Shown: positions 2,712 to 14,718 of the stretch, one piece after another
How positions within the stretch are numbered: position 1 is the first letter of the stretch
Layout of the letters: the number at the start of each line of letters is the position of its first letter
IMG/VR virus record: IMGVR_UViG_3300025141_011461
Location: 1 to 44,387 of that record
DNA: 44,387 nucleotides
Direction: 5' to 3' (one strand)
Source of the DNA: a virus
Made by a program: the position numbers and the translations under genes
The notes under the pieces: model-generated
Databases searched by the model: none
What the model saw: the letters and a program-made list of their open reading frames with translations, nothing else
What the model was told of the DNA's origin: nothing

Positions 2712-3832
2712 AGAAAGATACGATGCCAATAGTTTTATTACGTTGGATTACAATTATTGCAATAGCATCTATATTCTATACGACATTTTTAAAGGGTCAA
2801 ACTTATACTGTAGGTGATACAGTTAATAACTTTGGTGCTGATATATGTGATAATGGTGAAGGTTACTGGGATTATAATACAGATGGTTTACATAATATTA
2901 CATGGATGAATCTATTTACATCCTGGTGACCATCATGTCAAGTGGAGGCTCCGCTTACAGAACAAATATGGCAAGTACATCAAAACCAACAAGTAGTAGT
3001 ATTAGGTGTAGGTAGTGATTGGAGTACTTACTCGTGTGAAGGATGGGTTAATGCATTCGGAATAACATATCCTATGTTGGATGATTCTGATTCGGATATC
3101 TATTCGATGTTTGGTGATGGGTATGTACCATACAATGTTATTATAGACCATCAAGGTATCGTATTATATGCACAATCAGGATTCAATTCAGGTGTTATTG
3201 TAAATATTATTAGTGAAGCATTAGCAAATATAGACGGTGATAACGATGGTGTTTATAATGGAATGGATAATTGTCCTGATGCTTATAATCCAACCCAAGA
3301 AGATATCGACTTAGATGGTGTTGGTGATGCCTGTGATAATTGTGATAATTTAATATTCTATACTGGCAATTTAAATGGTGATGATTTCATTGATATATTT
3401 GATATTCTGGTGTTAGTAGATGTTATATTAGGACATAATGAAAGTGAATGTTCTATAGAAACTTCAGATGTAAATAATGATGGTACTTCAAATGTATTAG
3501 ATGTTATTGTATTACTACAGCAGATATTAAATGGAAATAGACAACAAGCAATACAATACTTACAACAAATATTAACACCAACAGAATTTAAAGAATTGAC
3601 AGACGAATACTCTCTATTATTAGAACCGAAGATGATAGCATATCCTAATCCATCTAATAGTAGTATAAATATAATTGGAAATGGTTATGTTACTATTTAT
3701 GATATGACAGGTAGATTAATAAAACAAATGGATATAAGTGGTAAATACATATGGGATACTAAAGATATACCAACTGGTATTTATCACATAATCAATCAAA
3801 CAGAAACAATTAAAGTAACGGTATTAAAATGA
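2708..3832 (+). CDS. TlpA-like thioredoxin with in-frame TGA (Sec) and T9SS-type tail
   Basis: The frame is continuous from ATG 2708 to TGA 3830 apart from one TGA at 2927-2929 (codon 74). In order it has an N-terminal hydrophobic segment (about residues 8-27), a TlpA/AhpC-like thioredoxin domain (about 32-170), an Asp-rich thrombospondin-3-like calcium repeat (about 175-212), two dockerin-like repeats (about 220-276) and a C-terminal sorting domain (about 311-374; [29 protein letters not shown]). The TGA sits exactly at the first Cys of the WCxxC motif: [14 protein letters not shown]. If read as selenocysteine it gives a UxxC redox site in a 374-residue exported protein. A nine-pair hairpin follows at the right distance (2936-2959). 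The alternative is a nonsense mutation or sequencing error of a Cys codon. Downstream reading would otherwise need a GTG at 2942 that starts inside the fold, which is unlikely to be useful. Confidence 0.75.
2936..2959 (+). promoter_or_regulatory. Candidate bacterial SECIS hairpin
   Basis: TGT 2936-2938 pairs with ACA 2957-2959, and AAGTGG 2940-2945 pairs with CCGCTT 2951-2956 (one U-G wobble). C2939 is bulged and the loop is AGGCT at 2946-2950. The loop begins 17 nt after the in-frame TGA and has G at its second position. Bacterial SECIS elements lie directly after the UGA, within the coding region, with an apical loop roughly 16-37 nt downstream and a G in the first loop positions, so this fits by shape and spacing. 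Confidence 0.6.
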
Positions 3833-9032: not shown

Positions 9033-9103
9033 GTGTCGGTGGCCGAGTGGTTAGGCAACGGATTGCAAACCCGTATAGATGAGTTCGATTCTCATCCGGC
9101 ACT
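9033..9103 (+). tRNA. tRNA-Cys (GCA)
   Basis: The cloverleaf can be drawn: acceptor GTGTCGG (9033-9039) with CCGGCAC (9096-9102, one U-G), D arm GCCGAGTGGTTAGGC, anticodon loop TTGCAAA (anticodon GCA, Cys) and a T arm with loop TTCGATT. The discriminator is T and no CCA is encoded. The last pair of the anticodon stem is an A-C mismatch (ACGGA with CCCGT). It is wedged between two coding genes with 1 and 3 nt to spare, so it must be cut from an mRNA-like transcript. Confidence 0.9.
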
Positions 9104-9106
9104 CAA

Positions 9107-13321: not shown

Positions 13322-13531
13322 ATGACTTTAAAAGAAATATTAGTTGAATTAGAAATAATAGAAGGTACATTAGATGATGCTTTCTATTCTTTACCAGAAT
13401 ATAACGCTAATGAAGATAGTAGGTCTTATGTGGATAGTGCTAGAAATGAATTATACGGTTTGAAAGATAATCTTGAAAAAGCTATTTTAGATGGCGCTGA
13501 TTTAACAGTAAGTTATGAAGTAAAAAATTAA
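13322..13531 (+). CDS. Small acidic helical protein
   Basis: This is a 69-residue helical protein preceded by AAAGGAG. It is acidic and lacks Cys. It is the last gene before the 608-nt gene-free stretch with a candidate structured RNA. Confidence 0.5.
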   Translation: MTLKEILVELEIIEGTLDDAFYSLPEYNANEDSRSYVDSARNELYGLKDNLEKAILDGADLTVSYEVKN

Positions 13532-13536
13532 ACATT

Positions 13537-14111
13537 TGGGTTGACTAGGATATTAAGTTATCACTGCTTGTCTTAACGACATCTGGAATCAACCCATAGT
13601 TTTTTGACAATTTGGAAATAGGAAGCACGAAGACTTGCTATCTTCGTGTGGGATTGACAGAATAAACCTTTTTCTGGAGAAGGGGGTTATTGTTGAGTAA
13701 GTTCGTTTATGGTGAACTCCCTAAGGGCAGAACCCGGCTCGAATGTGGGCGATAGGAATCAAGACATTGTGAACTGAAAGATGTGTCATGAAACAGAAAA
13801 CGACTACTTTTCTGGCTCATTGTAAGAGAGTGGTAGAAATACTGAGGTTCTTACTTTATTACCTAATAATCCGTGAGTGATGGATAAGGTGTGCTAACAG
13901 AAGTTGTGTTCACTTCAACGTAGTTAACCACTATAAGAAGTAACCAATCATAACCGATTGGGTTAGTAGCATGAGTATTCAAAATCATTCAAGACCGATG
14001 ACACTTGTGGTATGTCAGTATCACATCCCACCTAAATTCCAAATACTTAAATAGTGGCTCCAATTCTTAGTCCTCACATATTAACGACTTAAAGATAAGG
14101 GGTCACTATTT
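13537..14111 (+). ncRNA. Candidate large structured non-coding RNA (about 575 nt)
   Basis: Between 13532 and 14139 no credible frame exists on either strand, and the DNA is less AT-rich than its neighbours. Many short-range perfect stems occur: 13537-13544 with 13589-13596 (8 bp), 13553-13557 with 13572-13576, 13626-13633 with 13641-13648 (8 bp), 13665-13675 with 13678-13688 (11 pairs, three wobbles), 13794-13800 with 13808-13814 (7 bp), 13822-13827 with 13849-13854, 13900-13904 with 13912-13916, 13944-13949 with 13956-13961, and 13999-14003 with 14013-14017. A 13-pair stem, AAATAGTGGCTCC (14049-14061) with GGGGTCACTATTT (14099-14111), closes the 3' domain and encloses a further hairpin. Phages carry large ornate RNAs (GOLLD, ROOL) of similar size; whether this is one of them is untested. 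No clear promoter of its own was seen, so ends are approximate. Confidence 0.62.
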
Positions 14112-14139
14112 ATTAATAATAACGAAAGGGAACATAATC

Positions 14140-14718
14140 ATGATAAATGATAATAATAAGTTACATTTTTTATTAGGTATTTTAGTGACTTCTTTATCTA
14201 TAGTTTTATATAAAGAAATTATTTATAAACCACCTGTACTTAAAACCAAAACAGAGACAATAGTCAGGATGGTCGATGAGCCTTTTATAAGAGGTAACTT
14301 TGAAATAGAAGCATCAGAAATTAAATCTACTTTAAATGAATCTAAACTCAAACATCTACTTATATATGTAAATGCTTTATGTGATGAGTATGGTGTAGAT
14401 TATGAAATGGTTAAAGCTGTTATTCAAACTGAATCAAGTTGGAATCACAAAGCAGTATCAAAAAGTGGAGCTATTGGTTTAATGCAAGTGTTACCTGAAA
14501 CTGCTATAACAGAATTCAATACACCCAAAGATGATTTATTTGATCCGTATGTGAATGTTACGGTTGGTATTAAATATTTATCTAAATTGAATAATCATTT
14601 TGATAATTTAGATGCTTTGCTAACTGCATATAGTCACGGTCCAACTGTCACAAAAAAGTATAGTGAAAAATATATAAGGTCTAACTTCTATGTTAAACGA
14701 GTATACAACAATATGTAA
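14140..14718 (+). CDS. Membrane-anchored lytic transglycosylase (SLT family), endolysin candidate
   Basis: This 192-residue protein has an N-terminal hydrophobic anchor (about 8-25), a linker, then an SLT/lysozyme-like domain (about 70-190). The catalytic Glu is E98 in QTESSWNHKA, followed by GAIGLMQVLP and LLTAYSHGP, the canonical family blocks. It would cut the glycan strand of peptidoglycan between MurNAc and GlcNAc. The signal anchor fits a SAR-type or membrane-tethered endolysin. AAAGGG stands upstream of the ATG. It sits directly after the candidate large RNA and 3 nt before a Popeye-like gene. Confidence 0.88.
   Translation: MINDNNKLHFLLGILVTSLSIVLYKEIIYKPPVLKTKTETIVRMVDEPFIRGNFEIEASEIKSTLNESKLKHLLIYVNALCDEYGVDYEMVKAVIQTESSWNHKAVSKSGAIGLMQVLPETAITEFNTPKDDLFDPYVNVTVGIKYLSKLNNHFDNLDALLTAYSHGPTVTKKYSEKYIRSNFYVKRVYNNM

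Follow-up and report, generated by a model that had tools for sequence, protein, structure and literature searches.

The autogenous leader of T4 gene 32 is a structured RNA with pseudoknots. Two further phage RNAs, GOLLD and ROOL, are large, contain multiple pseudoknots and have unknown functions (PMC12286853). The manA RNA (RF01745) is smaller, with a length of ~190 nt; Rfam classes it as cis-regulatory, and Weinberg et al. (2010) rank it as a riboswitch candidate located in 5′ UTRs (PMC2864571). No ligand for manA was reported in the literature searched, and the P-HM2 transcriptome paper gave no match for manA-region gene tags or for non-coding RNA. Here we describe a larger relative of manA in a DNA stretch of 44,387 nt (IMG/VR record IMGVR_UViG_3300025141_011461), the whole of which we call the window. 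We consider it probable, judging from comparative sequence data, that a T4-like marine phage encodes this relative, an enlarged variant of manA, as an RNA gene that stands on its own and acts in trans.

Results

An ORF-free interval with a manA match

Between a 69-aa ORF without a family match (13322..13531) and a 192-aa ORF encoding an SLT-domain transglycosylase (14140..14718; Pfam PF01464, E 4e-26), both on the plus strand, neither strand of positions 13533-14139 has an ORF that reaches 60 aa. An earlier note on this DNA had claimed that no frame and no repeat explains the interval and that its base composition is distinct, all of which was borne out: a search of the record with the interval returned just the interval itself, and its GC content is 0.38-0.40 compared with 0.26-0.35 in adjacent windows of sequence. 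The minimum free energy (MFE) of the interval is -162.3 kcal/mol versus -140.2 +/- 6.1 for shuffled sequences (z -3.61), with none of 20 shuffles as good. The same note proposed a new large phage RNA. The RNA is large and structured, but it is not wholly new, since its 3′ core is homologous to manA RF01745.

When the window was scanned with Rfam at gathering thresholds, the only hit was tRNA-Cys (9033-9104). This is the sole tRNA in the window; within the interval itself neither ARAGORN nor Rfam found a tRNA or tmRNA. Under a permissive E-value search manA emerged at 13843-14030 with 46.2 bits (E 1.2e-10), the gathering cutoff being 55.2 bits. That cutoff is passed by contig L365 and by 10 of 12 further contigs scanned, at 56.6-73.4 bits. 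The likeness to GOLLD and ROOL suggested earlier lies in size, in complexity and in the unknown function but does not extend to homology, as the GOLLD and ROOL models did not match the interval either at the gathering threshold or at E values up to 10. Another point of likeness is a tRNA adjoining the RNA in L276 and a tRNA-Pro adjoining the 5′ module in L365. The window RNA is, however, shorter than GOLLD and ROOL.

Elsewhere in the window, the product of positions 2942-3832 combines a dockerin domain with a Por-secretion C-terminal sorting domain; in a T4-like phage this hints at a host with a Por secretion system. A gene-free gap at 1640-1740 holds three tandem copies of CCTATAGCTTTTTTATAACATTA, the first slightly different at its start.

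Relation to manA

A covariance model of the core, R1, was built from the large RNAs. It gives the window RNA 115 bits and retrieves cyanophage manA RNAs with E values of 9e-9 to 8e-5; the large RNAs and manA are therefore homologous. The manA core motifs, helices P1, P2 and P3, the 3′ hairpin and the closing helix are all present in the large RNA (46-73 bits to the RF01745 model), and both groups occur in marine T4-like phages with gene 32 among their neighbors. In size they differ, manA being ~190 nt and the large RNA ~430-580 nt. Whereas the closing helix adjoins the core in manA, with a total of ~190 nt, a domain of ~220 nt parts the two in the large RNA, which is therefore a manA variant and not an ordinary member. 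Two long-range helices also enclose its core, and it has an extra outer stem, a 5′ module, a 3′ terminator hairpin and, in some relatives, its own promoter. By sequence and predicted fold, the window RNA is an enlarged manA variant whose new parts are the inserted domain, the outer stem, the 5′ module and the 3′ hairpin.

Fold and covariation

The fold was derived with RNAalifold and with our own helix scan, which agree on the main helices. The alignment (A1) holds 19 non-redundant sequences, with an effective number of ~11, from metagenomic contigs. In the helix scan the best eight helices score 0.98-2.24, all above the maximum (0.86) of 20 column permutations. In the resulting 82-pair structure 98.5% of cells pair, and changes on both sides are seen in 45 of the 82 pairs, compared with 22.8 +/- 2.4 in shuffles. 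When the partners are slid by 1-3 columns, the count is 10 or fewer, a control that favors the 82-pair structure because that structure was chosen on the same 19 sequences. The covariation score is 0.394 versus 0.153 in shuffles and no more than 0.079 with slid partners. Four-way exchanges, for instance CG, GC, AU and UA at column pair 33/51, are not explained by bias in selecting the structure. Covariation among homologues, the test on which the earlier note had staked its proposal, is thus strongly positive. That the interval might be a decayed coding region, a caution of the same note, or might fold by chance can be ruled out with near certainty given the compensatory changes, the 98.5% of paired cells and the lack of an ORF.

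Without its 3′ hairpin the RNA is ~515 nt long (13533..14047, plus strand, as are all elements below), as delimited by a family profile match at 13531-14045, homologues and covariation; with the hairpin it measures 580 nt. It begins with the 5′ module (13536..13597), a stem formed by TGGGTTGA and TCAACCCA that encloses the conserved CTAGGAT..ATCACTGC and is kept in L005, L267 and L276. The U-rich motif AGUUUUUUGACA(A) at 13598..13610 follows, with near-invariant columns in A1; we dropped a possible pairing of this motif with the 3′ hairpin's A-rich loop, as it shows no covariation. The outer stem P0 (13610..13622 with 14031-14044) is paired in the window MFE structure, and its columns 12-15/473-476 are 96% paired with a UA/AU exchange. 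Hairpin H1 (13625..13649) has eight pairs, 100% paired, four of them with changes on both sides (CG/GC/AU/UA). The closing helix GGGAU (13650..13654) with AUCCC (14025..14029, its 3′ strand placed by the covariation analysis) is likewise 100% paired, with GC exchanged for AU in two sequences; it is probably the counterpart of the outer helix of the manA model.

Alignment A1 delimits the inserted domain (13655..13811), which canonical manA does not have. It contains the covarying helix 5 (columns 106-109/193-196), a manA-like GACAGAAUAA repeat and a hairpin at 13665-13687. A weak match resembling the 5′ part of manA, at 13626-13740, was considered as a second manA copy and rejected; it corresponds to the inserted domain with its repeated GAAUAA motif. 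From within this domain the helix UGUGUCA/UGACACU (13782..13788 with 13999-14005) reaches across the core, with changes on both sides in four of seven pairs and the second-best helix score (1.69 versus the null maximum of 0.86). Since many of the real helices are long-range, as this one is, the earlier picture of short local stems was incomplete. The manA core itself (13814..13979; Rfam match and covariation) comprises P1, P2, P3 and inner hairpins and is enclosed by 13814-13820/13971-13979. Downstream lies hairpin P5 (14007..14024), the stem of which is invariant across the 19 sequences.

In pseudoknot PK1 the P2 loop UGAGUGA (13874..13880) pairs with UCAUUCA (13985-13991), the 3′ strand before P5, and this pairing covaries with exchanges UA, AU, GC and CG (columns 305-310/424-429). 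A second loop-loop contact, PK2, is proposed between GACUAC (13802..13807) and GUA(U)GUC (14010-14016), the window pairing being read by eye. It is less supported than PK1: in relatives it takes the form ACGAUU/AAUCGU, 96.5% paired, with one of six pairs covarying (A-U to G-C, three sequences). The rows of the window and of L005 are faulty in A1 around columns 87-95 and 305-310. Both PK1 and PK2 could be drawn for the window after re-reading the register by eye, A1 being several columns off at PK1.

Homologues, neighbors and copy number

In marine phage contigs, profile search recognized a homologue of 420-520 nt, complete or nearly so, at ~40 loci, which had been gathered via the downstream gene and short sequence motifs. 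Identity to the window RNA is ~77% in L005 and L267, which have it at the same genomic place, and lower in the other loci. For the large form, searching 50,697 GenBank phage records directly at the DNA level gave no relevant match, and one strict pattern gave none in bacterial and archaeal genome contigs; matches to the patterns TTGACAGAATAAAC, GGGTTGANTAGGATNT and AATTTGGAAN{0,1}TAGGAA were mostly due to chance.

The neighbors of the RNA change from contig to contig. It precedes gene 32 in 37 loci, six of them with an intervening methyltransferase gene; the identity of gene 32 is given by the L529 product, which matches Pfam gp32 (E 2e-10). Other downstream neighbors are the transglycosylase gene in the window group and tRNA-Gly in L276 and L280. 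Each contig examined holds one copy or none: R1 matched exactly once in 24 of 32 phage records and not at all in eight, a count that does not prove one copy per genome because the contigs are mostly fragments. In a record of 130 kb, ~70 kb separate the RNA (at 32.4 kb) from gene 32 (at 102 kb), and nothing RNA-like was found before that gene 32. The T4 gene 32 leader is similarly structured and pseudoknotted, and most relatives of the window RNA stand before gene 32 as it does. They differ from it in that a terminator parts the RNA from gene 32 in most gp32-linked members and in that gene 32 of the 130-kb contig has no such RNA before it.

Cyanophage manA behaves in the same way. It is single-copy in each of 39 records, and in 37 of 37 with a second query, and lies next to purL/hsp20, psbA/ferredoxin, gp32, pstS, gp23/gp3 or talC. 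On metagenomic contigs it also adjoins tRNA-Asn and terminators. The manA of P-HM1 lies beside gp23 and that of P-HM2 beside gp32, though both phages are filed under one species name. Among 116 pattern matches, 15 canonical manA RNAs stand shortly 5′ of a cyanophage gene 32 homologue (L037, L038, L049, L052, L064, L077 and others), a neighbor not named in the part of the 2010 paper considered here (PMC2864571).

These neighbor and copy-number data appear to speak, if indirectly, against cis-regulation by manA, the role under which Rfam files it and which its ranking as a riboswitch candidate in 5′ UTRs implies (PMC2864571). A cis-acting leader would sense a metabolite or a phage protein and control the downstream gene, with the 3′ hairpin as a switchable terminator. 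The downstream genes share no common theme, and a dedicated sensor that is present once per record must have switched its target gene repeatedly. A single copy at an ever-changing location suggests instead an RNA gene in its own right.

Neighboring genes often encode abundant phage products (gp32, gp23, psbA, hsp20 and talC). The put and EAR elements modify RNA polymerase to read through terminators. A ligand-free leader might accordingly boost whatever gene follows, either in that manner or by protecting the 5′ end of the mRNA, and several copies are indeed directly followed by terminators. We regard such a leader as quite improbable, since it should occur in several copies per genome while one was found, and a pseudoknotted RNA of 500 nt seems larger than such a role requires.

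Promoters, terminators and gain or loss of the RNA

Promoters and terminators were called by sequence consensus (sigma-70 consensus; stem plus T-run by script). In L005, L267 and L276 a sigma-70-like promoter with 10-11 of 12 matches lies 7 nt 5′ of the module that begins the RNA. Agreement with the sigma-70 consensus is poor in most gp32-linked members. A stem with T-run follows the RNA in 17 of 25 distinct members. For the window copy, the consensus scan found neither a clear promoter of its own nor a T-run or terminator, so the window RNA could be the 5′ leader of the transglycosylase mRNA.

A cis-acting leader would fit the terminators directly 3′ of the RNA in many members, as well as the window group, where the hairpin lacks a T-run and at most ~30 nt separate it from the gene. 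It would also explain the short distance to the next ORF in many cyanophages, where manA lies 10-50 nt before an ORF and a terminator was not found. However, at least two gp32-linked members, L530 and L529, have a second promoter-like copy after the terminator, and the RNA therefore need not be in the gp32 mRNA. We judge cis action to be unlikely, though less so than a boosting leader.

The RNA also comes and goes at one site. L004 represents the empty site, with only a hairpin between the same two flanking genes that in L005 and L267 enclose promoter and RNA; L003 has the promoter and hairpin without the large RNA. As read from these sites, the promoter and RNA are a discrete cassette that is gained or lost. 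ACTTAAA (or ATTTAAA) occurs on both sides of the promoter-plus-RNA cassette in L005 and L267 and once in empty L004.

Separable end elements

The 13-pair stem 14049-14061/14099-14111 of the earlier note is present, with two G-U pairs, but it forms a separate 3′ hairpin (14049..14111) and does not close the RNA. In the window this hairpin, with the conserved inner part AAUUCUUAGUCCUCA..ACGACUUAAAGA, belongs to the transglycosylase gene's leader. In the gp32-linked group, the large RNA is followed by a look-alike with T-run, which is a terminator in most of these relatives. The hairpin pattern was found once per locus, and at least 11 phage contigs have the hairpin 5′ of the transglycosylase gene at sites where no large RNA is seen. 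The hairpin before the transglycosylase gene thus qualifies, on its distribution, as a predicted small RNA element of its own. Its inner part UUCUUUAGUCC..GACUUAAAAGAA is conserved and its outer stem variable across the window (14049-14111) and L003, L004, L006, L008, L009, L012, L017, L026, L027, L028 and L030.

The 5′ module is separable as well. L365 has a detached copy 2.3 kb from its large RNA, directly 5′ of tRNA-Pro; weak matches in L284 and L300 were rejected on inspection. On the reverse strand of L365, a second ORF-free stretch of ~450 nt lies 5′ of this tRNA-Pro (reverse-complement ~1500-1945). A promoter-like TTGACT..TATATT precedes it, and the detached 5′ module with tRNA-Pro forms its end; no clear relative of its main body was found among the loci collected here. 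This stretch may be another phage RNA.

Discussion

A trans-acting RNA gene would account for the single copy per record, the changing neighbors, the gain or loss of the cassette and the terminator that follows the RNA. The product would be an RNA of ~515 nt, or 580 nt with the 3′ hairpin, in which the manA core is combined with the inserted domain, the outer stem and the 5′ module. In relatives it is apparently transcribed as a separate unit, bounded 5′ by a sigma-70-like promoter and 3′ by a terminator hairpin. Because no clear promoter of its own and no U-run was found for the window copy, this copy is likely co-transcribed with the flanking genes and then released by processing. We infer that the RNA is transcribed, processed and active in trans, either by itself in folded form or within an RNA-protein particle, and not as a switch of the next gene. 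That it so often adjoins gene 32 may be due to early or middle expression common to both.

It is conceivable, and we offer this tentatively, that in marine T4-like phages all manA RNAs, small and large, are mis-filed RNA genes that are single-copy and act in trans, and that the large form works as an entire RNA machine or as an RNA-only assembly comparable with GOLLD and ROOL. A riboswitch candidate since 2010, manA now has a large, probably free-standing relative that occurs once per record with changing neighbors. The question would thus move from which metabolite is bound to what the manA RNA does in trans during infection. Canonical manA is present in the cultured cyanophages P-HM2, P-SSM2 and S-SSM5, so experiments on this role are feasible now.
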